From Arcobacteraceae bacterium (GTDB taxonomy: Bacteria > Campylobacterota > Campylobacteria > Campylobacterales > Arcobacteraceae), in assembly GCA_021107755.1 (NCBI GenBank), contig JAIOSF010000014.1, positions 1 through 64,000 of the forward strand: DNA of 64,000 nt. Reading direction: 5' to 3'. This document shows positions 45,817 to 64,000 of this stretch, one piece after another (the stretch's first letter is position 1; every line of letters begins with the position of its first letter). The position numbers and the translations under genes were made by a program. The notes below the pieces were generated by a model, which was not told where the DNA came from, did no database searches, and saw nothing but the letters and a program-made list of their open reading frames with translations.

Positions 45817-46767
45817 ATGATACAAACATTTATTAAAAAACTAATCCTTATTGGATTAATATCAACTACATATTTATTTGCTGAAACGCAATCCTTTACT
45901 GTAGAAAATGATGCCTTAGCAAGTCATGATGATGGATATTATACAAATGGTCTCTTTTATACATATATAGATGAAATCGAACATCCTTCCTATTTAAACT
46001 TTATGAAAGATTTAAAAACAGATGGTGCAATATCTTTTACTCATCTTATGTTTACCCCTGAGAATAAAAAACAAACGACAGCACAATTCAATGAAATACC
46101 TTATGCTGGATATGCAAAATTGAATTTTTTATTGTATAAATCTTCAAAAAACTATTTTCACGAATTTGGTTTTAATATTGGGCTTGTTGGACCTTCAACT
46201 TTAGCAGAAGAATTTCAATCTAATTTTCATAGTCTTATAGGGCAAGATAAAGCAAAAGGTTGGGACACTCAACTTAAAGATCAATTTACATCTGGGATAT
46301 CTTACCAATTTGCTTATAAAACAGATAGTTTTAATATAGGAAATGTAAACATAGATTGGACAAATAATATTAGAATTGATGCTGGAAATTTTTATAGTGG
46401 AATTTTAGCCTCAAGCACAATTAGAATAGGAAGTATCGCTTATGATAGTTTTGCAACTACTGGTAATTTTACAGTTACTGATGAAAATCACCTCATAAAT
46501 AGTCAATATCCAAAAGATTTTAATTGGTCTATTTCTTTTGGATTATTTGCGAATCAAATTGAAAACTATTATATCATTAATGAAGCAAGAGATTTAGGAT
46601 ACAATTTAGAAAAGCTTGATTATATATCGGGAGAACAAGTAAACTATACTATTTATTATGATGAGATTCAATATACTTTTACAATCAAATCTGTATATCT
46701 TAATGACCACCTATTTACAAGTGCCAATAAACAATGGGGTGGATTAACTATTAGTTGGAAATTTTAA
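45817..46767 (+). CDS. lpxR: LpxR-family lipid A 3'-O-deacylase
   Basis: A 316-residue outer-membrane beta-barrel (DUF2219/LpxR). After a signal peptide (to about residue 22) the mature protein starts QSFTVENDALASHDDGYYTNG, holding the Asn-Asp pair and the YTNG motif of the family. NEIPYAGYAKLNF, FNIGLVGPSTLAEE and FHSLIGQDKAKGW, including the catalytic-type His, follow. The last residue is Phe, as usual for outer-membrane barrels. LpxR removes the 3'-acyloxyacyl group of lipid A. AAGGAG ribosome site; its 3' end overlaps the convergent HAD gene by 24 nt. Confidence 0.85.
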   Translation: MIQTFIKKLILIGLISTTYLFAETQSFTVENDALASHDDGYYTNGLFYTYIDEIEHPSYLNFMKDLKTDGAISFTHLMFTPENKKQTTAQFNEIPYAGYAKLNFLLYKSSKNYFHEFGFNIGLVGPSTLAEEFQSNFHSLIGQDKAKGWDTQLKDQFTSGISYQFAYKTDSFNIGNVNIDWTNNIRIDAGNFYSGILASSTIRIGSIAYDSFATTGNFTVTDENHLINSQYPKDFNWSISFGLFANQIENYYIINEARDLGYNLEKLDYISGEQVNYTIYYDEIQYTFTIKSVYLNDHLFTSANKQWGGLTISWKF

Positions 46768-49070: not shown

Positions 49071-50096
<1,026 letters not shown>

Positions 50097-51224
50097 ATGG
50101 ATTTTATACATTATGGTAAACAATCAATAGATCAAGATGATATAGAAAATGTTGTTAAAGTTTTAAAAAGTAATTATATTACAACTGGTCCTAAAGCAGG
50201 AGAATTTGAAAATGCTATTGCTAAATACTGCAATGTTAAATATTGTGTTGTTGTTGCGAATGGTACAGCAGCATTACATTTAGCTTCATTAGCTTTACTA
50301 AAAGAAAATGACAAGGTATTAACTACAGTTAACTCATTTTTAGCTACATCTAATTCTATATTATATGTAAAAGCAAAACCAATTTTCGTAGATATTACAA
50401 AAGATGGAAATATTGATTTAGACTTGTGTGAAATAGAGCTTAAAAAAGACTCTTCAATAAAAGCACTTTATGGAGTTTCTTTTAGTGGAAATATGCTTAA
50501 TCAAGATAAATTAAAATATTTAAAAGAAACTTATAATATCAAAATCTTAGAAGATAATGCACATGCTCTAGGTGCTACTTACAATGGGATAAAGGCAGGA
50601 GGTTGCAAAAATTCCGATTGTAGTATCTTTTCATTTCATCCTGTAAAACATATTACAACGGGTGAAGGTGGTGCTATCACTACAAATAGTAAAGAGTTGT
50701 ATGAAAAGATTTTAAGATTAAGAGGTCATGGAATCGTAAAAACAGAAGATATGAAACCTTGGGGATATGAGATGAGAGAGCTTGGTTATAACTATCGTAT
50801 TACTGATATTCAGTGTGCACTGGGGATTTCCCAACTAAAAAAGTTACCCTCATTTATAAAAAGAAGAATAGAAATAGCCAAAAAATATGATGAAGTCTTT
50901 CAAAATACAATTGTTAACCCACTTTATACCTTTAATGGTCACTCATCTTATCATCTTTATATAGTTCAAGTTGATTTTGATAAACTCAATATATCAAAAG
51001 AGGAATTATTTCTAAAATTTCATGAAAAAAATATTTCTACTCAACTACATTATCTTCCTATTAATAAACAGCCCTATTATGAAAGTTTGGGATATGGAGA
51101 CGAAAAAACACCTGAAATGGATAAGTACTATCAAAAATCTTTTTCTCTACCAATATATCCACTTTTAACAGACGAGGAACAAGATTATGTTATTAAAACA
51201 TTGTTTGAGATATTAGATGCCTAA
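50097..51224 (+). CDS. pseC: PseC aminotransferase
   Basis: PseC transfers an amino group to C4 of the PseB product, using glutamate and PLP. The 375-residue DegT/DnrJ-family enzyme shows VVVANGTAALHLASLALL, EDNAHALGATYNG and the PLP-Lys segment FSFHPVKHITTGEGGAI. The ATG follows the pseB stop directly and overlaps pseF by 8 nt, so pseB-C-F are translated together. Confidence 0.94.
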   Translation: MDFIHYGKQSIDQDDIENVVKVLKSNYITTGPKAGEFENAIAKYCNVKYCVVVANGTAALHLASLALLKENDKVLTTVNSFLATSNSILYVKAKPIFVDITKDGNIDLDLCEIELKKDSSIKALYGVSFSGNMLNQDKLKYLKETYNIKILEDNAHALGATYNGIKAGGCKNSDCSIFSFHPVKHITTGEGGAITTNSKELYEKILRLRGHGIVKTEDMKPWGYEMRELGYNYRITDIQCALGISQLKKLPSFIKRRIEIAKKYDEVFQNTIVNPLYTFNGHSSYHLYIVQVDFDKLNISKEELFLKFHEKNISTQLHYLPINKQPYYESLGYGDEKTPEMDKYYQKSFSLPIYPLLTDEEQDYVIKTLFEILDA

Positions 51225-51924
51225 ATGTGTAGCTATCATCCCAGCAAGAGGAGGAAGTAAAAGAATTCCTCGAAAAAATATTAAAAACTTTTTTGGAAAA
51301 CCTTTAATTGCATATAGTATAGAGGTTGCTATCAAAAGTAATCTTTTTGAAAAAGTTATTGTAACTACAGATGATGAACAAATAGCAAAAATAGCAAAAC
51401 AATATGGAGCGGTAGTTCCTTTCATGCGACCAAAAGAGTTAAGTGATGATTTTATTGGTACTGCTGATGTGATACATCATACTATAGAATACCTTGAAAC
51501 TCAAGGTGAACACTATGAGTATATTTGTACTTTATATGCCACAGCTCCTTTACTTCAAAAAGAGTATCTCATAGAAGGGTACAAAAAACTAAAAGATAGT
51601 GATGCAATAAATGCTTTTAGTGCAACCTCAATGTCCTTTCCAATTCAAAGAACTTTTAAACTTAATATTGATGGAAGATGTGAAATGTTCACCCCAGAAC
51701 ACTATATGACACGAAGTCAAGACTTAGAAGAGGCATATCAAGATGCTGGGCAATTTTATTGGACAAAGCAAGGGATAAAATCAGATGAGATAATGTTTGG
51801 AAAAGATAGTATCCCCATCATTCTTCCTAGACATCTTGTACAAGATATAGATACACTTGAAGATTGGAAACGGGCCGAACTGATGTATCAAGCTTTAGAA
51901 CAAGATAAAAATAATGTCAATTAA
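51217..51924 (+). CDS. pseF: CMP-pseudaminic acid synthetase
   Basis: PseF activates pseudaminic acid with CTP, the last step of the pathway. The 235-residue cytidylyltransferase opens with CVAIIPARGGSKRIPRKNIK, the nucleotide-binding motif, and has VTTDDEQIA and LVQDIDTLEDWKRAE near the C-terminus. It overlaps pseC by 8 nt and pseG by 11 nt. Confidence 0.94.
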   Translation: MPKCVAIIPARGGSKRIPRKNIKNFFGKPLIAYSIEVAIKSNLFEKVIVTTDDEQIAKIAKQYGAVVPFMRPKELSDDFIGTADVIHHTIEYLETQGEHYEYICTLYATAPLLQKEYLIEGYKKLKDSDAINAFSATSMSFPIQRTFKLNIDGRCEMFTPEHYMTRSQDLEEAYQDAGQFYWTKQGIKSDEIMFGKDSIPIILPRHLVQDIDTLEDWKRAELMYQALEQDKNNVN

Positions 51925-52843
51925 ATCAAAAAATATCCTTTTTCGGGCAGACTCATCATCTAATATAGGTACTGGACATATTATGAGAGATTTGGTTTTA
52001 GCCCAAAAGTATGCCAAAAAAGGTAATAATATAACCTTTGCCACACAAAATATAGAAGGTAATATTAATTTTAAAATTAAAGAAGCTGAATACAACTTAA
52101 AAATACTAAAATCAAATGATCTAGAAGAGTTAGATAAACTAATCAAAAAGCTCAAAATAGATATGATAGTAATAGACCATTATGAAATAGGTGAAAGTCA
52201 AGAAAGAAAATTAAAAATTAAAAACAAAAAATTAAAAATTATGGTATTTGATGATACTTACGAAAAACACTATTGTGATATACTCTTAAACCATAATATA
52301 AATGCTGATAAAAAAAAGTATAAAGAGAAAGTTCCAAAACAGTGCAAGCTAAAATGTGGAAGTAAATATACACTACTTAGAGATGAATTTATAAAAGAGA
52401 AAAAAAGATTAAAAAAGAGATTCAACACTCAACATTCATCATTCAATATTTTAATAGCCATGGGTGGGGTAGATACTGCAAATCTAAATATTTCTATTTT
52501 AAAAATTTTGCGTAAATATAAAAATATAAAGGTGACTTTAGTAACCACTTCATCAAATCAAAATTTAGCTACCTTGCAAAATTATTGTAAAAATAAAAGA
52601 TGGATAGATTTGCAAATAAACTCTACTAAAATTGCTAAACTGATAAGAAAAAGTGATTTTGGAATCATCACTCCAAGTGTTACTGCAAATGAACTATACT
52701 TTATGAAAACTCCATTTATAGCTATAAAAACAGCAGACAATCAAAAAGAGATGTATAAATTTTTAAAAAAGAAACAATACCTTACAATGGATAAGTTTAA
52801 CAAAAATAAATTAAATCAATTTATAAAAAAGTTACTACCATGA
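51914..52843 (+). CDS. pseG: UDP-sugar hydrolase PseG
   Basis: PseG removes UDP from UDP-2,4-diacetamido-2,4,6-trideoxy-altrose. The 309-residue GT-B-fold hydrolase has the N-terminal loop SSNIGTGHIMRDLVLA with its catalytic-type His, VIDHYEIG, and later ILIAMGGVDTANL and FGIITPSVTANELYFMKTP. It is about 35 residues longer than Campylobacter PseG (274). Two simple-sequence stretches (52208-52240 and 52421-52447) encode surface-loop segments near residues 98-110 and 168-178 and may account for part of this. AT content in these parts is extreme. Confidence 0.9.
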   Translation: MSIKSKNILFRADSSSNIGTGHIMRDLVLAQKYAKKGNNITFATQNIEGNINFKIKEAEYNLKILKSNDLEELDKLIKKLKIDMIVIDHYEIGESQERKLKIKNKKLKIMVFDDTYEKHYCDILLNHNINADKKKYKEKVPKQCKLKCGSKYTLLRDEFIKEKKRLKKRFNTQHSSFNILIAMGGVDTANLNISILKILRKYKNIKVTLVTTSSNQNLATLQNYCKNKRWIDLQINSTKIAKLIRKSDFGIITPSVTANELYFMKTPFIAIKTADNQKEMYKFLKKKQYLTMDKFNKNKLNQFIKKLLP

Positions 52844-53319
52844 GTACTATCTCCCTTATAAACTTCATTGACTTAACCTTAAAAGAAAAAAAGCTTATTT
52901 TGTCATGGAGAAATAATCCAAATATTAGAAAATGGATGTTTACAACAGAAACAATATCCCTAGAACAACACTTGAAATTTATAGAAACATTAAAAAATTC
53001 TAAAGATAAACAATATTTTGTAGTAAAAGATGATAATAATTACTTAGGAGTTATCGATTTTTGCAATGTCACAAAAACAAGTTTAGAAATGGGACTTTAT
53101 AAAAATCCAGAGGTTTCTAATGTTGGAAAAATATTATTAAATAGTGTACTACAACATGCATTTAATAGTTTAAAAGTAGAAACTATTATCTCTGAAGTCT
53201 TTGAAGTAAATAAAAAAGCATATGAACTTTATATATCAATAGGATTTAAACCTTATAGTAGTAAGATATTCAATAATAAAAAAGTGACATGTATGGAGTT
53301 AAAAAATGGAAATCGGTAA
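52840..53319 (+). CDS. pseH: PseH N-acetyltransferase
   Basis: PseH acetylates the C4 amino group of the pseudaminic acid precursor using acetyl-CoA. The 159-residue GNAT protein shows LSWRNNPNIRKWMFTTE, YFVVKDDNNYLGVIDF, and the acetyl-CoA-binding segment ALYKNPEVSN-like (GLYKNPEVSNVGKILL). It overlaps pseG by 4 nt and pseI by 14 nt. Confidence 0.9.
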   Translation: MSTISLINFIDLTLKEKKLILSWRNNPNIRKWMFTTETISLEQHLKFIETLKNSKDKQYFVVKDDNNYLGVIDFCNVTKTSLEMGLYKNPEVSNVGKILLNSVLQHAFNSLKVETIISEVFEVNKKAYELYISIGFKPYSSKIFNNKKVTCMELKNGNR

Positions 53320-54328
53320 TTTTGATTTAGAAAGAGATGGTACATTTATCATAGCAGAACTTAGTGCTAACCATGGAGGAAAAATCGAAATTGCCAAAGA
53401 GACAATAAAGGCTGCAAAAGAGATAGGGGCAAATGCTATCAAACTCCAAACATATACAGCAGATACCCTTACCCTAGATTGTGATAATAAAGATTTTATA
53501 ATAAAGGGGGGCACTCTTTGGGATGATAAAAAACTTTATGATTTATATAAAGAAGCTTATCTTCCATGGGAGTGGCATGAAGAACTTTTCTCATATGCAA
53601 GAGAGATTGAAATAGATATTTTTTCTTCACCTTTTGATAAAACTGCTGTAGATTTTTTAGAGCAATTTAATCCATCTGCATACAAAATAGCATCATTTGA
53701 AATCACAGACCACGAACTCATTCGATATACAGCATCCAAAGGAAAACCTATAATTATTAGCACTGGCATTGCCACAATTGATGAGATACAAGATGCTGTT
53801 AATATTTGTAGAAATACAGGTAATAAAAATATCATTTTACTCAAATGTACAAGTAGTTACCCTGCACCTCTTGAAGATGCAAACCTACTTACTATTCCAA
53901 ATTTAGCTCAAACTTTTAATGTGACAAGTGGTTTTTCAGATCATACACTTGGTTCAACAGCACCAATTGTAGCAGTAACTCTTGGTGCAAAAGTTGTTGA
54001 GAAACATTTTATATTAGATAGATCAATAGGTGGTGCAGATGCTAGTTTTTCCCTTGATAAAGAGGAGTTTTCACAAATGATAGAAGCAATAAGAGCTACA
54101 GAAAAGCTTTTAGGAAAAGTTGATTATAGTATGAATGAAAAGAAAGAAAAATCAAGACAATTTGCAAGAAGTCTTTATGTGTGTAAAGATATAAAAGAAG
54201 GAGAGAAGTTCAGTGAAGAGAATATTAAAAGTGTAAGACCTAGTTATGGGATGCATCCAAAATACCTTCACGACATTATAGGGGGAAAAGCAAAAAAAGA
54301 CTATAAACTTGGGGATAGATTAAACTAA
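53306..54328 (+). CDS. pseI: Pseudaminic acid synthase
   Basis: PseI condenses the hexose with phosphoenolpyruvate to form pseudaminic acid. The 340-residue NeuB-family TIM-barrel has FIIAELSANHGG at the N-terminus, YKIASFEITD, STGIAT, LLKCTSSYPAP, GFSDHTLGSTAPI and VEKHFILDR, followed by a C-terminal SAF (antifreeze-like) domain (about 285-340). It closes the six-gene pse set; the next gene has its own -10 box 18 nt downstream. Confidence 0.95.
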   Translation: MEIGNFDLERDGTFIIAELSANHGGKIEIAKETIKAAKEIGANAIKLQTYTADTLTLDCDNKDFIIKGGTLWDDKKLYDLYKEAYLPWEWHEELFSYAREIEIDIFSSPFDKTAVDFLEQFNPSAYKIASFEITDHELIRYTASKGKPIIISTGIATIDEIQDAVNICRNTGNKNIILLKCTSSYPAPLEDANLLTIPNLAQTFNVTSGFSDHTLGSTAPIVAVTLGAKVVEKHFILDRSIGGADASFSLDKEEFSQMIEAIRATEKLLGKVDYSMNEKKEKSRQFARSLYVCKDIKEGEKFSEENIKSVRPSYGMHPKYLHDIIGGKAKKDYKLGDRLN

Positions 54329-54378: not shown

Positions 54379-55353
54379 ATGGCAAACAAAATTCAGCAAA
54401 CTGTAAAAGAACTCCATGAAAAAAGAATGAAAATGTGGGATGAAAGTATCGAAAATCATAAAAAATATATTGATTCTAGTACAGGTTTATTTTTAGATAA
54501 ATATACTAAAGAACGAGTTTGCCCTGTTTGTTCAAGTAAAAATTTTCTCAAAATTTTCTCAAAAGAGGGTGGAACTTATGTAAAATGTCTAGATTGCAGT
54601 ATGATATATTTAAATCCTGTGTTTAAAGATGAAGCTATCATTGAATACTATCAGATAAATCATACAGAGCAAGCTGAACTTGTAGAGTCAGACACCGATA
54701 ATTTTTATATTGATATTTATAATGGTGGCTTAGACAGTATTCAAAAAGCAACTTCAAGTATTTCAAATATTTTAGATATTGGTTGCTCATCAGGAACATT
54801 TTTAGATTTGGCAAGACAAAGAAATTTAACTACATATGGTATTGAACTTAATAAAGCAGAATTTGAATTTGCAAAAAATAAAGGGCATAAGGTTTTCAAT
54901 GATTTATTAGAAAACATCACTTTTGATACAAAATTTAATGCTATTACAATGTGGGATGTATTTGAACATATTATCAATGGAGAGTTTTATCTTAATCTAA
55001 TGAAGTGTTTATTAAATGAAAATGGTGTTATTTTTTTACAAATTCCAAGTTCTGATTCCCTTGCTGCAAAAATTTTACAAGAACATTGTAATATGTATGA
55101 TGGATTAGAACATGTAAATTTATATGGTGTAGAAACTATCAAAAAATTAGCACATAAATGTAATTTAGAAGTGCTAAGTTTAAAAACAGTAATTTCTGAA
55201 ATAGGTGTTATTAATAATTATCTGAACTATGAAAATCCATATATAGGAAACACTAAAAATAAAGAGTTTATAGCAAATCTTATAGATGAAAAAAAACTTC
55301 ATGAAACTTTGCAGGGATACAAACTCCAAGTTATTCTAGGAGAAAAAAAATGA
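54379..55353 (+). CDS. Zinc-ribbon class I methyltransferase
   Basis: A 324-residue protein with an N-terminal helical leader, then a C4 zinc ribbon (VCPVCSSKN and VKCLDCSMIY, about residues 52-78), then a SAM-dependent methyltransferase domain with ILDIGCSSGTFLDLA and MWDVFEHI. Similar zinc-ribbon methyltransferases occur in flagellin glycosylation and O-antigen loci and methylate sugars. The acceptor here is unknown. It overlaps the amidotransferase gene by 4 nt. Confidence 0.78.
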   Translation: MANKIQQTVKELHEKRMKMWDESIENHKKYIDSSTGLFLDKYTKERVCPVCSSKNFLKIFSKEGGTYVKCLDCSMIYLNPVFKDEAIIEYYQINHTEQAELVESDTDNFYIDIYNGGLDSIQKATSSISNILDIGCSSGTFLDLARQRNLTTYGIELNKAEFEFAKNKGHKVFNDLLENITFDTKFNAITMWDVFEHIINGEFYLNLMKCLLNENGVIFLQIPSSDSLAAKILQEHCNMYDGLEHVNLYGVETIKKLAHKCNLEVLSLKTVISEIGVINNYLNYENPYIGNTKNKEFIANLIDEKKLHETLQGYKLQVILGEKK

Positions 55354-56486
55354 AAATTTGTACAAAATGTGTAATGCCAAATACGAAACCTGATTTACAC
55401 TTTGATAAAAATGGAGTCTGTGATGCATGTAGATCCCAAGAATCAAAAAATAAAGAGATAGATTGGAAATCAAGAGAAAAAGAGTTTTTAGATCTAGTTC
55501 AAAAATATAAAACTCACCCAGACTATGATTGTATAATAGGTGTAAGTGGTGGGAAAGACTCTACATATCAAGTATTAAAAGTACTTGAATTAGGTCTCAA
55601 TCCTCTTTGTATATGTTTTGAACCCACAATTCCTACAGAAATTGGTCGTAAAAATCTTGATAATTTAAATAATTTAGGGGTAGACTTAATACATATAAAA
55701 AGAAATCCTATTGTGTATAAAAAACTTGCTCGTGAAGCATTTATACGAACAGGAGATAATGAATGGCAAAATCATTTAGGTATATTTACAACTGTTCCTA
55801 AATTTGCTGTAAATTTCAATATTCCACTAATCATTTGGGGAGAAAGTCCTCAAATAGAATATGGTGGTCCAGCAACAAGTAAAACAAGAAATACTTTGGA
55901 TAGACAATGGTTAGAGGAATTTGGGGGACTATTGGGCAATAGAATCTCAGATATGATAGGTGTTGAAGGATTAACCCAGAAAGACTTATCTTTATACACT
56001 TATGCAAAAGATGATGATATCCATAGAGTTGGAGTGACTGGATTATTTTTAGGATATTATTTTAAATGGGATTTAAGAGAAGTTCTTAAAAAATCAAAAG
56101 AGCATGGTTTTTCAGTCCAAGACAGACCAGTAGAAACTACTTATGAAAATTTTGAAAATTTAGATTGCTATAGTAACCACTTACATGACTATTTAAAATA
56201 TGTAAAATATGGCTTTGGAAGAGCAACAGACAATGCCTGTTTAGATGTAAGACTTGGATATATTACAAGAGAAGAAGCTGTAAGACTTGTAAATAAATAT
56301 GATGGTATTCCACCTAAAAAAGCTATCAAAGAATATTTGAAATATACGGGCTTTACACAAGAAGAGTTTGATAAAATTGTTGACTCATATATAAATAAGC
56401 GAATTTTTCAAAGAGATGAAAATAGAAAATTTATAAAAGATATTGATGGTTCACTAGTGCGTAAGGAAGAATATATTGTCAAATAA
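55350..56486 (+). CDS. N-acetyl sugar amidotransferase (WbpG/PseA family)
   Basis: A 378-residue protein of the WbpG/WbuX/PseA family. A zinc-ribbon N-terminus (CTKCVMPNTKPDL, CDACRSQE) precedes the PP-loop ATP pyrophosphatase motif VSGGKDST (about residues 69-76). These enzymes replace an N-acetyl oxygen with ammonia from a partner amidotransferase to give an acetamidino group. PseA makes Pse5Ac7Am in Campylobacter and WbpG acts on ManNAc3NAcA sugars in Pseudomonas. HisH- and HisF-like genes follow, as in the WbpG-HisH2-HisF2 clusters. Confidence 0.87.
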   Translation: MKICTKCVMPNTKPDLHFDKNGVCDACRSQESKNKEIDWKSREKEFLDLVQKYKTHPDYDCIIGVSGGKDSTYQVLKVLELGLNPLCICFEPTIPTEIGRKNLDNLNNLGVDLIHIKRNPIVYKKLAREAFIRTGDNEWQNHLGIFTTVPKFAVNFNIPLIIWGESPQIEYGGPATSKTRNTLDRQWLEEFGGLLGNRISDMIGVEGLTQKDLSLYTYAKDDDIHRVGVTGLFLGYYFKWDLREVLKKSKEHGFSVQDRPVETTYENFENLDCYSNHLHDYLKYVKYGFGRATDNACLDVRLGYITREEAVRLVNKYDGIPPKKAIKEYLKYTGFTQEEFDKIVDSYINKRIFQRDENRKFIKDIDGSLVRKEEYIVK

Positions 56487-57099
56487 TACTTTGGTAATCA
56501 TTGACTATAAAATGGGCAATCTTCGTTCAGTCCAAAAAGCTTTTGAAAAAATAGGGTGTAGTGCTATTATTTCTAATGATAAACAAGTCATCTTAGATGC
56601 AAAGAAATTAGTTTTGCCAGGAGTTGGTGCTTTTAAAGATGGGATGAAACATTTACAAGAACTAGAATTAATAGATATTCTTAATAAAAAAGTTTTAGAT
56701 GATAAAACACCTATTTTAGGTATCTGTTTAGGGATGCAACTTTTATCAAATAAAAGTTATGAGAATGGGGAAACAGCTGGGCTAGGTTGGATTAACGCAG
56801 AGGTTGTTAAATTTGAATTTGATACTCAAAAATTAAAAGTACCTCATGTAGGTTGGAATGAAATAATATTTCAGGATAGAAATAATATATTATTTAAAAA
56901 CATAGAAGATCATAAAGACTTTTATTTTGTTCACTCTTATTATTTTAAAGCAAATGAAAAAGTAACTATTGCAACTACTGATTATGGATTTGAATTTACT
57001 TCTGCTGTAAACAAAAACAATATTTTTGCAACACAGTTTCATCCAGAAAAAAGTCAAGCAAATGGATTACAAATACTAAAAAATTTTTGGGAATACTAA
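56476..57099 (+). CDS. hisH: HisH-like glutamine amidotransferase of the sugar module
   Basis: A 207-residue class I glutaminase resembling HisH. The nucleophile loop is GICLGMQLL (Cys), with partner His and Glu in TQFHPEKSQ; LPGVGAFKDGM is the oxyanion-side loop. It is encoded between the PP-loop amidotransferase and a HisF-like gene, so it probably supplies ammonia for acetamidino formation rather than for histidine. TTG start overlapping the upstream gene by 11 nt. A role in histidine synthesis cannot be excluded by sequence alone. Confidence 0.87.
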   Translation: MSNNTLVIIDYKMGNLRSVQKAFEKIGCSAIISNDKQVILDAKKLVLPGVGAFKDGMKHLQELELIDILNKKVLDDKTPILGICLGMQLLSNKSYENGETAGLGWINAEVVKFEFDTQKLKVPHVGWNEIIFQDRNNILFKNIEDHKDFYFVHSYYFKANEKVTIATTDYGFEFTSAVNKNNIFATQFHPEKSQANGLQILKNFWEY

Positions 57100-57102
57100 A
57101 AA

Positions 57103-57855
57103 ATGTTAAAACATAGAGTTATACCTTGTGTCCTCTTAAAAGATTGGCAACTTGTCAAAAGTATCCAGTTTGGTTCATTTAGAACTATAGGTCATCCCAC
57201 TTCAACTGCAAGAATTTATAATTCAAGAGATGTTGATGAACTTATTGTATTAGATATTGATGCTAGTTTAAAAAATGATGAGATTAATACAGAGATTATA
57301 ACAGATATTGCAGATGAATGTTTTATGCCTCTAACCATAGGTGGAGGGATAAATTCAATTGAAGATATTTATAAAGTACTCAAAGCAGGTGCAGATAAAG
57401 TTTCTATAAATACTAAAGCTATAGAAGATAAAGAATTTATCAAAAAAGCCAGCACAATTTTTGGTTCACAATGTATTGTCTGTTCAATAGATGTAAAAAA
57501 ACATAACAATCAATATAAAGTATATAGCAGAAAAAATGGTATTTTAGATATTGATCCTTTAGAACTTGCCATAGAATATGAAAAATATGGTGCAGGTGAA
57601 ATATTATTAACCTCTGTTAATAATGATGGAACAACAAATGGATACGATTTGGAGCTCTTGCAATATTTCCAAAAAAAAGTTACTATACCTATTATTATTA
57701 ATGGTGGGGCTGGTATTCCGCAACATTGTGTTGAAGCTATTCAAAATGGTGCTGATGCTGTAGCTGCTGCATATATTTTTCACTTTTCACAATATACACC
57801 AAACGATATTAAGCAAGAGATGCATCATAATAATATTGATGTAAGAATCTTATAG
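57103..57855 (+). CDS. hisF: HisF-like protein of the sugar module
   Basis: A 250-residue TIM-barrel related to HisF. The segment that carries the first catalytic Asp of HisF (CLDVKDG) reads CVLLKDW, with Leu in place of that Asp, while the second is kept in [17 protein letters not shown] and the second phosphate-binding loop [10 protein letters not shown] are present. Loss of the Asp suggests it is not a histidine enzyme but a channel partner of HisH for the amidotransferase, as HisF2 is for WbpG. Follows HisH by 3 nt. Confidence 0.85.
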
Positions 57856-57871
57856 AATAAAGGATATCATC

Positions 57872-59152
57872 ATGGCTAATAAAAATATTTTTTTACGTTC
57901 CAATCGTCTATACTTTGAACCATTAGAAGAAAAACATCTTACACCTAGTTATATAAGTTGGCTTAATGGTTCAAAAACAACACAATATAATTCCCATGGT
58001 GTTTTTCCAAATACCAAACAAAAAACGCTACGATATATAGAAAGTATTCAAAATGATTCAAGCACTATTGTTTTGGCAATAATTGAACAACTTACTGATA
58101 CTCATATAGGAAATATCGCTATCCAATATATTGATTTTTCAAATTCAACTTGTGAAATATCTATAATGATTGGGGATAGAAACTATTGGTCTCATGGCTA
58201 TGGATATGAGGCTTTTCATAGGATTATACAACATTGTTTTAACAAATTAAATCTTAACAAAATTTCAATTGGTACAACAAGTGATAATATCAGTATGCAA
58301 AATGTTGCCAAAAAATTAGGTATGACACAAGAAGGAACTCGACGATCAGAGATTAAAAGAGATTCGCAATACTTCGATATCTATTTATACGGTTTACTCA
58401 AAGATGAATATAAGATTCCAAAACAAAAAATAGTAGCTTCTATTGAAGCAAGAATGACTTCAAGTAGACTACCTGGAAAAGTATTAAAATTAATAAATAA
58501 TATTCCTGCTTTAGAACTTATGGTAAAAAGAGTTTTAAGAGCTGAAAAACTTGATGAAGTTATAATTGCAACAACAACCAATGAAGAAGATGCTCCTATT
58601 ATAAAATGGTGTGAACAAAATAAAATAAAATATTTTAGAGGAAGTGAAGAAAATGTGTATGAAAGAGTACTAAATACTCATATTACAAATAATACAGATA
58701 TTATAGTAGAACTAACAGGAGATTGCCCTCTTCTTGATCCGGTATTAATTGATGAAGCTATTGAGTGCTACTTAAATAATAAGTATGAATATGTATCAAA
58801 TTGTATTGAAGAAAGTTATCCCTTAGGGATGGCTGTTGAAGTGTTTTCTTTAGAAGCTTTGAAAACGATTGCCGACAATAGAGAACTAAGTATTATAGAT
58901 AAAGAACATGTATCTCCATTTTTTTATACCTCTAATCAATATAAAATATTTAATATCACTGCCCCTAATAATCTAACCTTTCCAGAATTATCAGTGACAC
59001 TTGATACACAAGAAGACTTTGTAGTAATAGAAAAAATTGATCAATGCTTTGACAATAATAATTACACAATAAAAGATATTATTAATATAGCTAAAAAAAA
59101 TCCGAAATGGATATCAATAAATACAAATATTCATCGTAAAGGATTAGAATGA
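57872..59152 (+). CDS. GNAT acetyltransferase-SpsF cytidylyltransferase fusion
   Basis: A 426-residue two-domain protein. Residues about 1-180 form a RimJ/PseH-like GNAT N-acyltransferase (EISIMIGDRNYWSHGYGYEA, VAKKLGMTQEGTRR). Residues about 188-426 form an SpsF/NeuA-type cytidylyltransferase starting with the nucleotide loop IEARMTSSRLPGK and containing ELTGDCPLLDP and PLGMAVEVFS. It would N-acylate a sugar and activate it with CTP. Activity order and substrate are unknown. The fusion differs from pseH and pseF, which are also present, so it probably serves another sugar. Confidence 0.84.
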   Translation: MANKNIFLRSNRLYFEPLEEKHLTPSYISWLNGSKTTQYNSHGVFPNTKQKTLRYIESIQNDSSTIVLAIIEQLTDTHIGNIAIQYIDFSNSTCEISIMIGDRNYWSHGYGYEAFHRIIQHCFNKLNLNKISIGTTSDNISMQNVAKKLGMTQEGTRRSEIKRDSQYFDIYLYGLLKDEYKIPKQKIVASIEARMTSSRLPGKVLKLINNIPALELMVKRVLRAEKLDEVIIATTTNEEDAPIIKWCEQNKIKYFRGSEENVYERVLNTHITNNTDIIVELTGDCPLLDPVLIDEAIECYLNNKYEYVSNCIEESYPLGMAVEVFSLEALKTIADNRELSIIDKEHVSPFFYTSNQYKIFNITAPNNLTFPELSVTLDTQEDFVVIEKIDQCFDNNNYTIKDIINIAKKNPKWISINTNIHRKGLE

Positions 59153-60129
59153 CGCTTAATGTTGCGTTAATAGGATTGGGAAATATCTCTTTACTATTTG
59201 ATGATGAAATAAATACAAAAACTGTTTTATCTCATGCAAAAGCTTTATATAAAAATAAACATTTTCATTTAAAATATTGCGTTGATATTAATACTAACAA
59301 TGAATCAAAACTTAGAAATTTTTTTCCTAAAGTACTTTTTTATACTAATGTTTTGGAGCTTTTAAAACAAACGGATATTGATATAATTGTCCTTGCAACA
59401 CCAACATCTACACATTTTGATATACTTACTAAACTAAAGAACCATCCAAGTATTAAATACTTTTTAGTGGAAAAGCCATTATTTGATACACATAATAGTT
59501 TAGATTCTATTGATGAAAAGATTGCCAATAAACTCATTATTAATTATATTAGAATTTTTGAACCAAATATTCAAGAATTTAAAAATAAAATCCAAAATAA
59601 ACAATTTGGCACTCCACAAAGAATAGTTTTAACATACACAAAAGGGACTAAAAATAATGGTTCTCATTTTATAAGTCTCATTAACTTTTTATTCTCAAAT
59701 CCAAAAATTGATAATTTAAATATTTTATCTATACAAGATGGTTTACAAAATGATCCAACACTAGATATTATAGCCTATATGAATTATGAAAATAAAGAAA
59801 CTCCTTTGTATTTAATTGGATTAGATCATAACAAATATAGTGTTTTTGATATAGATTTCTATTTTGAAAATGGAAAAGTTCGTATTGAAGATACCGAGCA
59901 AAATATGTTGATATCAAATGCTATTCAAGATGAAACTTATACTACATATACTACTTTAAAAAAGTCTAACAATATAAAACTAGATTTTGATAGAATTATG
60001 AAATATCCATATGAATATATTTACAATATTATTAACAATAATATCTCCCCTATTAATTTTATTGAGCATGAGAAAAAAAATATACAGTTTTATAATAAAC
60101 TAGAAAGAAAGGAGTTCTTTAATGAATAG
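59149..60129 (+). CDS. Gfo/Idh/MocA-type sugar dehydrogenase
   Basis: A 326-residue oxidoreductase. The Rossmann loop is NVALIGLGNISLLF and the second strand has CVDINTNN; LATPTSTHFD and FLVEKPLFDT (the EKP motif with the catalytic Lys) are present. The C-terminal domain is divergent from inositol or glucose-fructose oxidoreductases. It lies 4 nt inside the 3' end of the fusion gene and overlaps the aminotransferase by 8 nt. It probably oxidises a sugar before transamination; its substrate is not known. Confidence 0.84.
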   Translation: MTLNVALIGLGNISLLFDDEINTKTVLSHAKALYKNKHFHLKYCVDINTNNESKLRNFFPKVLFYTNVLELLKQTDIDIIVLATPTSTHFDILTKLKNHPSIKYFLVEKPLFDTHNSLDSIDEKIANKLIINYIRIFEPNIQEFKNKIQNKQFGTPQRIVLTYTKGTKNNGSHFISLINFLFSNPKIDNLNILSIQDGLQNDPTLDIIAYMNYENKETPLYLIGLDHNKYSVFDIDFYFENGKVRIEDTEQNMLISNAIQDETYTTYTTLKKSNNIKLDFDRIMKYPYEYIYNIINNNISPINFIEHEKKNIQFYNKLERKEFFNE

Positions 60130-61411
60130 ATTAGCTATCAACGGTGGAACAAAAGTCAGAACTAAAAAATTTCCTAAATATAATTCTATAGGACAAAATG
60201 AGATAAATGCAGTAACTGAAGTGATGAGAAATGGTACATTATCAAAATTTATTGGTGCTTGGTGTGAAGATTTTTATGGAGGGGAAAAGGTACAAGAGTT
60301 TGAAAAACTTTGGAGTGAAAAATTTGATGCAAAACATACTATTAGTGTAAATTCAAATAGCTCTGGTATTGTTGCCGCATTAGGTGCTTGTGGAATTGGA
60401 TTAGGTGATGAAGTTATAGTAAGTCCTTACTCTATGTCTATCTCTGCTACGGCACCTCTTGTTTACAATGCTACTCCTGTCTTTTGTGATCTTAACACAG
60501 ATAACTATGGCTTTGATTTGAAACATTTAAAAAGTTTAATCAGTGAAAATACAAAAGCTATAATCGTTGTACATATATTTGGAATACCTTCAGATATGGA
60601 TGAAATTCTTAAAATTGCCAAAGAACACAATCTCTATGTTATTGAAGATTGTGCTCAAGCACCACTTGCCATTTATAAAGGGAAAAAAGTAGGAACTTTA
60701 GGGGATATTGGAATTTTTAGTCTTAACTACCACAAACATATTCATACAGGTGAAGGTGGAATGTGTACAACAAATAATGATAAACTTGCAAATAAATTAC
60801 AACTAATAAGAAATCATGCAGAGTCAGTTGTTGAAGCAAAAGGGGAAAGTGACCTTGTAAATATGCTAGGATTTAATTTTAGAATCACTGAAATACAAGC
60901 TGCTATTGGTATTGAACAACTTAAAAAACTTGATGATGAAGTAAAAATCCGTCAAAAATATGCAAAAATGTATGATGAAGCACTCAGAAAATATCCATTT
61001 ATTAAAGTTAATAACCTTCAAGATAGACAAAGTGCACACTATATACAAGTATTTGAATTTGATCCGAAATTAGCTGGAATTAGTAGAGAACAATTCATTA
61101 AGGCTGTACATGCCGAACTTGAACCAGTTGAAGGGAGAGAAAAGGAAGGGGTTCCTATTTATGGAGGTTATGTGAAGCCTGTGTATCTACTCCCAATATT
61201 TCAGCAAAAGCAAGTATATAACAAACAAAACTTTTGTTTTAAGGATACAATAAGCTACCAAAAAGGGATATGTCCAAATGTTGAAAAGCTCTATACTGAA
61301 ACAATATGGGAACATGATTTAACAAGATCTCCACTTCGTGAAGAAGATATAAAAGATGTAATTTTAGCTTATACAAAAGTTTGTGATAATATTAATGAGC
61401 TTAAAAAATAG
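60122..61411 (+). CDS. DegT/DnrJ/StrS-type aminotransferase
   Basis: A 429-residue PLP-dependent sugar aminotransferase. Motifs: NSNSSGIVAALGACGIGLGD, VIEDCAQAPLAIYKG and the PLP-Lys segment SLNYHKHIHTGEGGM. At 429 residues it is longer than PseC (375) and has an extra C-terminal loop (about 340-390, YGGYVKPVYLLPIFQQKQ), as in StsC/AHBA-synthase-like members. With the dehydrogenase upstream it forms the oxidise-then-aminate pair common in amino-sugar pathways. The product is unknown. Confidence 0.86.
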   Translation: MNRLAINGGTKVRTKKFPKYNSIGQNEINAVTEVMRNGTLSKFIGAWCEDFYGGEKVQEFEKLWSEKFDAKHTISVNSNSSGIVAALGACGIGLGDEVIVSPYSMSISATAPLVYNATPVFCDLNTDNYGFDLKHLKSLISENTKAIIVVHIFGIPSDMDEILKIAKEHNLYVIEDCAQAPLAIYKGKKVGTLGDIGIFSLNYHKHIHTGEGGMCTTNNDKLANKLQLIRNHAESVVEAKGESDLVNMLGFNFRITEIQAAIGIEQLKKLDDEVKIRQKYAKMYDEALRKYPFIKVNNLQDRQSAHYIQVFEFDPKLAGISREQFIKAVHAELEPVEGREKEGVPIYGGYVKPVYLLPIFQQKQVYNKQNFCFKDTISYQKGICPNVEKLYTETIWEHDLTRSPLREEDIKDVILAYTKVCDNINELKK

Positions 61412-62339
61412 ACTCTTAATATTTGCAAATGACGCAGCTAGTGCAAGTGTAACTTTAGCTTATGCTTATCTCTATAAAAATCAATATAGGGAAGTATTAG
61501 CCTTCCCTAAAGATGTAATTGCTAAAAATATTTATAAAGAGTATATCCCCTCTTGTATTTGCGAGCAAAATATAACTTTTGAAGATACTGATACTATTAT
61601 CACGGGAACATCTGGTATTGATCCATCTTACGAAATGAATGCTATTGTCAATGCTAAAAAACATAACGTAGCTAAAGTTATCGTAATAGTTGATAACACA
61701 ATTCATTTTGATATGCGATTTTTATATAAAGATACTATAATACCTGAACAATATATACCTGATGAAATTTGGATATTTCAAAAAAACTTTATCTCTAATA
61801 TTGAATATTTAAATAAAAAATTTATATATACTGATGATATTTATACTAAATTTTTAAATACTATTTTTAACAAAAAGAAACCACAAATAGTTCATCCTTT
61901 TATAAAAAAAAATAAAAATAACTATTTAGTGATACTTACAGAGTATATTTATGATTTTTATAGACTCAAATATGGGTTTAATGAATATGACATGCTAGAA
62001 CATATCTTAGAAGAGATAGATAACTCCATGTTAAATATTCCAATTTTTTTAAAACTGCACCCTAAAGAACATAGCAATAAGTTCAATATTCTTCTAAGAA
62101 AATATTCTCATATTGATATTATAAATGATTCATGTAATATACAAGAATTAATTTATTATTCTAAAGTTGTTTTTGGAATTAACTCCTCTGTATTTAAAGA
62201 GTGTAAATCATTTCAAAAAGCAACCTATAGTATTCAAATCGATTCAAAAGAAGTTATTTATCCAACTTATTTAAATTCAGAATCTGTAATAAGTACAAAG
62301 AAACAACTTTTATCAACCTTAAAAAAACACTTTTATTAA
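61395..62339 (+). CDS. Putative GT-B-fold glycosyltransferase of the locus
   Basis: A protein of about 314 residues starting MSLKNRLLIFANDAASASV. The C-terminal part has IFLKLHPKEHSNKF and a Ser/Thr-rich segment IQELIYYSKVVFGINSSVFKE, typical of CDP-glycerol/polysialyl/Kdo-transferase-like GT-B folds where HPKE binds the nucleotide phosphate. The N-terminal half is uncharacterised (VTGTSGID-like TITGTSGIDPSYEM). I chose ATG 61395 over the GTG at 61383; both overlap the aminotransferase gene. I recognise no named family, so transfer of the locus sugar is only inferred. Confidence 0.55.
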   Translation: MSLKNRLLIFANDAASASVTLAYAYLYKNQYREVLAFPKDVIAKNIYKEYIPSCICEQNITFEDTDTIITGTSGIDPSYEMNAIVNAKKHNVAKVIVIVDNTIHFDMRFLYKDTIIPEQYIPDEIWIFQKNFISNIEYLNKKFIYTDDIYTKFLNTIFNKKKPQIVHPFIKKNKNNYLVILTEYIYDFYRLKYGFNEYDMLEHILEEIDNSMLNIPIFLKLHPKEHSNKFNILLRKYSHIDIINDSCNIQELIYYSKVVFGINSSVFKECKSFQKATYSIQIDSKEVIYPTYLNSESVISTKKQLLSTLKKHFY

Positions 62340-62344
62340 TAGTT

Positions 62345-64000
62345 TCATCTTTCGCTCACTGCATTTTTCATATCTCTAAATACCGCAATAAGCCCTTTTG
62401 CCCAATAATCTTTTAGTAAAGATAAATTTTCATTTGAGTGTAACTCTCTTTGTGTTAAATTTATTGTAAAATTTATGTAACTATCAACTAAGTGAGTGTA
62501 ATCTAAGAATATTTGCCCAAATACATTAATTGATAACTCTTTAGATTTTTCTAAAATCCATATCATTAAATCAAGTTTTTTAGTAAGGAAGTCATCTCGT
62601 GAAGTTATCTTTTGCTTTTGAAATTTTTTTGCTCTTTGTATAATAGACGTTAAAATTTTTATATCTTTTTTATAACAATCGGTTTCTAATACTTTTGATA
62701 TATTATCGAAATTACTTATTAAATCAATACCTTTACTATCAAGTTTTTCTGAAAGTTCTATAAACTCATCTTCAGTCATAGGTTTTAATCCATCTATATA
62801 AACACCATCTGATAAGTTGTATGCTTCATATTTCAAATATGGTTTCATATTTTCTATTATTACATCGTAATTCTTTCTAAAACTTATGAGTGACCTGTTT
62901 GTTTTAACTGTATCTCGTAAATTACCTTTAACTTCTAAGATATCTTCTCTTGATATAATATCTTCTCTTTTATTCTCAATCTCTAATACTTCTGTTTGCA
63001 TATAAGCACTATCACTACTATATCTTGCACCTGTTTCTTGATTAAATGCAGCATCATTCCCAATTGTAAATAACTTTTTTCCACCTAGATGAGCCATTAC
63101 ATGAAAAGAAAATGTTCCTACATTTGGGACACTTCCCAAACATCCAATATCTTTATTAATTGTTGTAAACTGACTAACATAATAGTGTAATTTTCTTTCT
63201 CTTAAAACATCCATTACATCAGGATGTTGCTGGGATAAAAGAATAATCACACTATTATTTAAATATTCAGGATCTTCTGTTGTTAAAAAATCTGCACATA
63301 AATGGGATGGATCTATAGAAAAAATTACATCTGGAACTATATTATACTTCTCAAGTTTTCTTACGATAACATCAACACAAGCTATAATATATTTATCCTG
63401 ATATTTTCTAATTAACTCTATATAAGTATCAACAGATGGACCTGCACTCACTAAAAGTATCTCTTTAGATTCAAAAATATCTTTTTTGTGTATATCATGA
63501 ACTACTAAGAACCTATCTTTACTTCTTATAAAACTAACTGTTCTTTTAACATTTTCAATAATTGCACTATAAGGGAAAGCTCCCGCATAATTATTTTCAC
63601 AAAATTCTACTAATTGTGTCTTAATATAATCCAAGTTTTGTAATAAAGTATAATGCTTAATATTATAGTTCATATAACTATGACAATGATAAAAACCACT
63701 AAATACTTGTTCTCTTTCCATAGTATCATCACTGACACTTAAAAAAAGTGTTCTATTACCTTCTTCAAATATGCTGTAATCCATTGTGAATAATGATAGT
63801 CTAAAAATTTCTAGTTCAGGTTCAATTATTAAAGTAGTATAGGATTGTATTTTTTTTTCAATCTCTTGAATATGATATCCAAGTCCTACACCTATATATG
63901 CAAATTTCATTATTTTTTGAAACTCAACATTTTCTAAATCAACCTTTTCATTAATAAAGTCAACAACAGGTAATACTTCACCTAAACCATAAGGCATAGA
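62345..64000 (-). CDS. Maf-type flagellin glycosylation protein, N-terminus cut by window
   Basis: A motility accessory factor (DUF115/MptE-like) of which about 551 C-terminal residues are visible; the frame remains open beyond 64000, and full-length Maf proteins are roughly 600-700. The nucleotide-binding core is ILLVSAGPSVDTYIEL with VIFSIDPSHLCAD, and CLGSVPNVGTFSFHVMAHLG and TIGNDAAFNQETGARYS also match the family. Maf proteins are thought to transfer pseudaminic or legionaminic acid to flagellin. Its position at the end of the pse locus, convergent with a 5-nt gap, supports that role. Confidence 0.85.
   Translation of the reverse strand, partial: SMPYGLGEVLPVVDFINEKVDLENVEFQKIMKFAYIGVGLGYHIQEIEKKIQSYTTLIIEPELEIFRLSLFTMDYSIFEEGNRTLFLSVSDDTMEREQVFSGFYHCHSYMNYNIKHYTLLQNLDYIKTQLVEFCENNYAGAFPYSAIIENVKRTVSFIRSKDRFLVVHDIHKKDIFESKEILLVSAGPSVDTYIELIRKYQDKYIIACVDVIVRKLEKYNIVPDVIFSIDPSHLCADFLTTEDPEYLNNSVIILLSQQHPDVMDVLRERKLHYYVSQFTTINKDIGCLGSVPNVGTFSFHVMAHLGGKKLFTIGNDAAFNQETGARYSSDSAYMQTEVLEIENKREDIISREDILEVKGNLRDTVKTNRSLISFRKNYDVIIENMKPYLKYEAYNLSDGVYIDGLKPMTEDEFIELSEKLDSKGIDLISNFDNISKVLETDCYKKDIKILTSIIQRAKKFQKQKITSRDDFLTKKLDLMIWILEKSKELSINVFGQIFLDYTHLVDSYINFTINLTQRELHSNENLSLLKDYWAKGLIAVFRDMKNAVSER

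Follow-up and report, generated by a model that had tools for sequence, protein, structure and literature searches.

A four-gene set at the end of a pse operon

The window that was analysed (64,000 nucleotides of contig JAIOSF010000014.1 from an Arcobacteraceae bacterium; GC content 29.6%) carries the genes pseB-pseC-pseF-pseG-pseH-pseI for pseudaminic acid (Pse) synthesis at positions 49104-54328 of the plus strand. PseC, PseF, PseG and PseI score above their NCBIfam cut-offs, and pseB and pseH were assigned from gene order and from conservation in related loci. They are followed on the same strand (54379-57855) by variable tailoring genes of the acetamidino type for a methyltransferase, a WbuX amidotransferase (1.8e-123), a HisH-like and a HisF-like protein. 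The operon ends with a set of four further genes, which is adjoined by a convergent gene for a Maf/PseD-like flagellin glycosyltransferase on the minus strand (62345-63997). A gene for an LpxR-type outer-membrane protein (45817-46767) lies a few kb upstream of the pse operon.

The first gene of the set (57872-59152, plus strand, 426 aa) encodes a fusion of a GNAT domain (residues ~1-182) with an SpsF-type cytidylyltransferase (residues ~183-426), recognized in Pfam as Acetyltransf_3 (residues 12-152, 1.5e-22) and CTP_transf_3 (residues 191-400, 1.5e-29). The second (59149-60129, plus strand, 326 aa) specifies a Gfo/Idh/MocA dehydrogenase (GFO_IDH_MocA, 3.3e-10) of a subfamily referred to below as the cassette Gfo, and the third (60122-61411, plus strand, 429 aa) a DegT-family PLP aminotransferase with a catalytic lysine (DegT, 6.7e-80). 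The fourth (61383-62339, plus strand, 318 aa) encodes a GT-B-like putative glycosyltransferase (GT) that matched no Pfam family; its likelier start is the in-frame ATG at 61395, where the match to the GT profile begins. All four reading frames are open, lie on one strand and overlap by 4, 8 and ~17-29 bases.

The SpsF domain has the features of its type (CTP_transf_3, an ARxxSxRLPGK loop, GD-x-P and LD-x-x-ED), and in a 15-row alignment the corresponding window motifs ARMTSSRLPGK, TGDCP and LDTQED appear intact. The invariant residues of the cassette Gfo are E108-K109-P110, R135, K165, N170-G171 and H173. In DegT, Lys205 and its surroundings are invariant across the orthologues, as is N-Y-H-K-H-I-H. 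Judged from these alignments, the catalytic motifs of SpsF, Gfo and DegT look intact. The original prediction had read the set as one that oxidizes, aminates and acylates a sugar, and this logic is supported.

A GT-Gfo-DegT unit is inherited within pse loci

A search with DegT yielded orthologues with 48-69% identity in 20 of the 397 genomes of the phylum, belonging to 6 of the 69 genera. The phylum, whose genomes look like those of flagellated bacteria with pse genes, is presumably the Campylobacterota. A profile of the cassette Gfo, built from those loci, matched the identical 20 genomes and no other (threshold 1e-35; weakest true match 4e-104). The tight coupling that had been proposed for the four genes is borne out by the overlapping reading frames on one strand and by this co-inheritance of Gfo and DegT, which is far beyond chance. 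The GT profile matched 17 genomes, every one a cassette carrier, in a slightly smaller sample of 382 genomes. The three carriers that were not matched (G386, G389 and G390) were probably outside this sample, as two of them, G386 and G390, had supplied sequences for the profile. PseI above its cut-off was found in 276 of the 397 genomes, and in all 20 carriers the cassette lies within the pse locus, where its genes adjoin pseI or are a few genes away, usually directly after it. These distributions imply that GT-Gfo-DegT is one inherited unit nested in pse loci.

The commonest order across the 20 loci is pseI - GT - Gfo - DegT - GNAT - tailoring genes - Maf. The arrangement SpsF - Gfo - DegT - GT is found in the window, where GNAT is fused ahead of SpsF, and in G207 and G273, where the GNAT gene comes last. 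The acyltransferase is mostly a separate GNAT; in G146 and G209, two genomes of one genus, a FemAB-like gene (L087:9903-10997 and L090:7064-8170) is found at the GNAT position, and its product perhaps transfers another acyl or an aminoacyl group. The methyltransferase-WbuX-HisH-HisF block is also present beside the cassette in G200, G229, G272 and G386, lies with the GNAT gene ~20 kb away in G311, and is replaced or missing in the remaining cassette loci. A Maf gene closes nearly all cassette loci examined.

The pse loci vary in other respects as well. At L048:5565-9380 the HisH/HisF genes are flanked by two WbuX-type genes, and at another locus an amidase gene (PF01425, L051:10311-11657) follows WbuX and replaces HisH/HisF; genes of similar length occur there in several loci. 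At L038:14389-15018 and L097:4390-5034 formyltransferase-domain proteins are encoded at the expected place of pseH, suggesting N-formyl pseudaminic acid in those genomes.

SpsF and its fusion to GNAT are optional

A cassette-associated SpsF was found in 4 of the 20 carriers only (the window genome, G207, G273 and G333), and PF02348 searches gave only KdsB and PseF in at least seven others (G200, G209, G229, G380, G386, G389 and G390). The core of the cassette is therefore not defined by a CMP activation of its own. Of the complete order that had been predicted (oxidize, aminate, acylate, activate), the first three steps are supported, whereas the dedicated activation does not hold for the cassette in general. 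In a tree compared without the KdsB row, the four cassette SpsFs form one clade (100/100), which is confined to cassette genomes and distinct from the SpsFs encoded at the pseF position. The fusion scored 31.9 bits as PseH (TIGR03585 cut-off 93.1) and 18.6 bits as PseF (TIGR03584 cut-off 205.7), and is neither. Both results agree with the earlier view that the set is distinct from the pseH and pseF of the operon.

SpsF is fused to GNAT in two genomes, the window genome and G333, and unfused in G207 and G273. The GNAT half of the window protein is orthologous to the separate GNATs of G207 and G273 (45 and 42% identity; tree support 93/91), whereas the GNAT that is fused in G333 is a different paralogue, the cassette GNAT of this genome being kept as a separate gene. 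The AU test mildly rejects one clade for the fused GNATs (p 0.039, long branches). This grouping makes it likely, on modest evidence, that two independent fusions took place. The window genome, G207 and G273 group together in the trees of Gfo, DegT and GT, and G333 is placed among the SpsF-less cassettes, from which it follows that SpsF probably joined the cassette twice; one clade of SpsF-bearing cassettes was not recovered but is compatible with the data (p 0.14 for Gfo, 0.13 for DegT and 0.26 for GT). A scan of genome contigs with the fusion as query returned distant GNATs only. As a conserved functional unit the fusion was rejected, because SpsF is unfused in G207 and G273 and joined to another GNAT in G333. 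The GNAT-SpsF fusion is an optional, late addition to the cassette, the core of which is a GT-Gfo-DegT-acyltransferase tailoring unit of pse loci.

The GT-B-like protein

TIGR04396 ('surface carbohydrate biosynthesis') is matched by 12 of the 17 GT homologues and the 'BFO_1060 family glycosyltransferase' by 7; both links are weak, with E-values never better than 1e-8. The GT-B label for the fourth gene is weak but reasonable on these profile matches. D17, R112-F113 and H226-P227 are invariant. Compared with the D/E-D/E-G, HP and S-S/T motifs of bacterial sialyl and nonulosonate (NulO) transferases, HP is invariant, D17-x-G19 near-invariant and S-S present in part of the family, with inconsistent Pfam matches; the sialyltransferase-like HP motif is no more than suggestive. 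The GT profile matched nothing in the PDB, and a structure model from the single sequence (pLDDT 38.6) was unusable for fold comparison.

Related genes outside the phylum

On plasmid p6 of Azospirillum argentinense a DegT homologue (39% identity) is fused to a methyltransferase. The plasmid also carries an SpsF-Gfo pair beside a gene for a hypothetical protein, along with genes for a NeuB-like, another SpsF-like and a large GNAT-like protein. Its Gfo aligns over the full length with the family's invariant residues present, and the hypothetical protein gave a weak match to the GT profile (2.4e-7 in a two-sequence search). This single case suggests that the association of the cassette with NulO genes extends beyond one phylum. 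By eye, the cysteine-rich methyltransferase of the DegT fusion (L100:12001-14343) resembles the product of window positions 54379-55353. Searches of plasmid proteins with Gfo and GT gave nothing informative, a Gfo match on an Escherichia coli plasmid being in an unrelated context.

What the cassette might act on

The reading that we tentatively favour, and would stop just short of calling probable, is that of a tailoring-and-transfer cassette for pseudaminic acid by which an acylamino group replaces a Pse hydroxyl. Gfo would oxidize a free hydroxyl of Pse at C8 (or C4), DegT would transaminate the resulting ketone, and GNAT, or elsewhere the FemAB-like enzyme, would acylate the new amine. If C8 is oxidized, aminated and acylated, the product would be a 5,7,8-triamido pentadeoxynonulosonate. 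In the window genome and the three others with SpsF this dedicated enzyme would make the CMP derivative, and in the remaining carriers either PseF would serve or the modification would occur on CMP-Pse. The cassette GT would then move the product onto the flagellar glycan, alongside Maf. The domains, the intact motifs, the co-inheritance, the place in pse loci and the optional nature of SpsF are observations, while the substrate, the modified position, the nature of the acyl group and the identity of donor and acceptor are inferred. The only free hydroxyls of Pse5Ac7Ac are those at C4 and C8. C8 is preferred because there is a precedent for an amino group at this carbon of a nonulosonic acid: 8-amino-3,5,7,8,9-pentadeoxynonulosonic acid occurs in the LPS of Flexibacter (Tenacibaculum) maritimus (PMC3210612).

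Support for a Pse derivative comes from the co-inheritance of Gfo, DegT and GT and from the confinement of the cassette to pse loci, although PseI is far commoner than the cassette. Further evidence is given by G207 (a single contig) and G273. Each has one NeuB-family gene, the pseI of the cassette locus, and two SpsF-type enzymes besides KdsB. With PseI as the only NulO synthase, a second sugar with a synthase of its own is unlikely, and as SpsF is implicated in nonulosonates, the second SpsF most simply serves a Pse derivative formed after PseI. In Bacillus subtilis spsF was assigned to the CMP-Leg pathway through mutants and prediction (PMC7439481). The replacement of GNAT by a FemAB-like gene in G146 and G209 is expected if an amine is acylated, as the favoured model holds. 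Against this model it can be said that the family assignments of Gfo and DegT stop short of a substrate, their PDB relatives acting on inositols, inososes, nucleotide sugars and Kdo, that Kdo8N synthesis relies on a different class of dehydrogenase, and that in the 16 SpsF-less loci the product would depend on a tolerant PseF or on CMP-Pse as the substrate.

Gfo, DegT and an acyltransferase are also the classic equipment for 3-acylamino UDP-sugars. The product of the cassette may therefore be a nucleotide-linked acylamino sugar separate from Pse and made by the logic of WbpB-WbpE-WbpD or GnnA-GnnB, for instance a 3-acylamino UDP-sugar, which GT would add beside Pse, with SpsF outside the route. 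Such a sugar would suit the 16 of 20 cassettes that need no SpsF and the dedicated GT that is always present; Gfo has a weak match to UDP-GlcNAc 3-dehydrogenase and the Gfo profile a weak one to WbpB (3e-7). No diagnostic sequence feature of a UDP-hexose substrate was found in the cassette enzymes. The restriction of a distinct SpsF clade to the cassette, in two cassette lineages, and the presence of every cassette copy in a pse locus are left unexplained by this alternative, which we consider unlikely though the strongest competitor. Our preference for Pse remains a cautious one because sequence does not separate Pse from a UDP-sugar and UDP-sugar sets of this kind are so well established.

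In the original prediction the four genes make an independent sugar or polyol, other than Pse, to which the fused SpsF would add CMP after oxidation, amination and acylation. Gene order and coupling speak for it, and two independent GNAT-SpsF fusions hint at a common substrate of acylation and activation. However, SpsF is missing from 16 of the 20 cassettes, seven carriers have KdsB and PseF only, the relatives of SpsF serve nonulosonates, the cassette is always in a pse locus, and in the SpsF-carrying G207 and G273 two SpsF-type enzymes stand against a single NulO synthase; we regard an independent second sugar as improbable. Less probable still is that the SpsF domain is a mere second CMP-Pse synthetase with the cassette acting downstream of CMP-Pse. 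The other SpsF of G207, G273 and G333 is encoded at the pseF position, so SpsF-type enzymes are evidently able to replace PseF. Yet these three genomes retain both SpsFs, in separate well-supported clades, and the window has a full-score PseF.

If the tailoring of Pse is real, the cassette supplies candidate genes for nonulosonic acids with an amino group at C8 (or C4), chemically known sugars for which no biosynthetic genes were found described in the literature searched. It would also define a glycosyltransferase family without a Pfam model, and Gfo, DegT and cassette GT after pseI would predict flagella that are decorated beyond ordinary Pse. In the literature, which was covered in part, related-sounding gene lists are described and the GT-Gfo-DegT-acyltransferase unit was not found; its novelty is provisional. 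The full proposal is an undescribed route to a CMP-8- (or 4-)acylamino-Pse through Gfo, DegT and GNAT after PseI, with an unclassified GT specific to the cassette and a dedicated CMP activation that was acquired on at least two occasions, with two fusions to GNAT. We hold this as possible, with more doubt than the tailoring of Pse as such.

Comparison with known systems

A legionaminic assignment was rejected, as no cassette gene scores above the LegB/C/H/G/I/F cut-offs and LegC-, NeuC-, NeuB- and NeuD-type genes are located in a separate cluster on G000:C8. That cluster encodes a PseF-like CMP synthetase, Gfo, a nucleotidyltransferase, NeuC, NeuB, NeuD, LegC and a dehydratase. It (L040:526-19901) has its own WbuX-HisH-HisF genes besides Gfo, and not far away a CTP_transf_3 frame containing three stops (C8:71081-71671) lies beside the gene of a 631-aa NeuB-family protein. 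A bacillosamine pathway (PglF/E/D-type) was rejected too, the cassette having Gfo instead of a dehydratase. The predicted separation from the legionaminic pathway is thus confirmed, and a common legionaminic or bacillosamine origin of all four homologues was not found. Known legionaminic clusters (ptm/leg, sps) resemble the cassette in their SpsF-type or PseF-like CMP step, and the ptm-like cluster has Gfo too; unlike them, the cassette is without LegB, LegG and LegI.

In the Kdo8N pathway (KdnB-KdnA-KdsB) an ulosonic acid is likewise oxidized and aminated before CMP activation, and KdnA is among the ten best PDB matches of the DegT profile, though not the best. KdnB is a metal alcohol dehydrogenase, a class other than Gfo. 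The cassette differs by its Gfo/Idh/MocA enzyme, an extra acyltransferase and a NulO instead of a Kdo context. With WbpB-WbpE-WbpD and GnnA-GnnB it shares the Gfo, DegT and acyltransferase chemistry, Gfo and DegT being both present and co-inherited. WbpD is an acyltransferase of the hexapeptide type, whereas that of the cassette is GNAT or FemAB-like; SpsF is present in some copies, and all are in pse loci.

Gfo, GNAT and PLP-transferase genes are listed in the pse flagellin islands of Aeromonas FGI group III (PMC7874193), which by gene list only, the level at which they were compared, have neuC and a CBS-domain gene in addition and are more ptm/leg-like. The Shewanella sfm genes were rejected as a relative, being a different gene set. 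GtfS of Tannerella forsythia, a Pse transferase encoded directly after pseI (PMC6120980, PMC6388019), is like the putative GT-B gene of the cassette in this position and in having the bacterial-sialyltransferase HP motif. The family similarity, a putative one through NF046086, is very weak, and the cassette GT occurs only with Gfo-DegT. A further comparison is with the Pse pathway itself (PseB-C-H-G-I-F) and its PseA/PtmG-type amidotransferase, which is complete in the window operon with WbuX-HisH-HisF adjoining. Beyond this pathway, the cassette brings in another dehydrogenase-aminotransferase-acyltransferase set, a glycosyltransferase of its own and, in the window, a second cytidylyltransferase.
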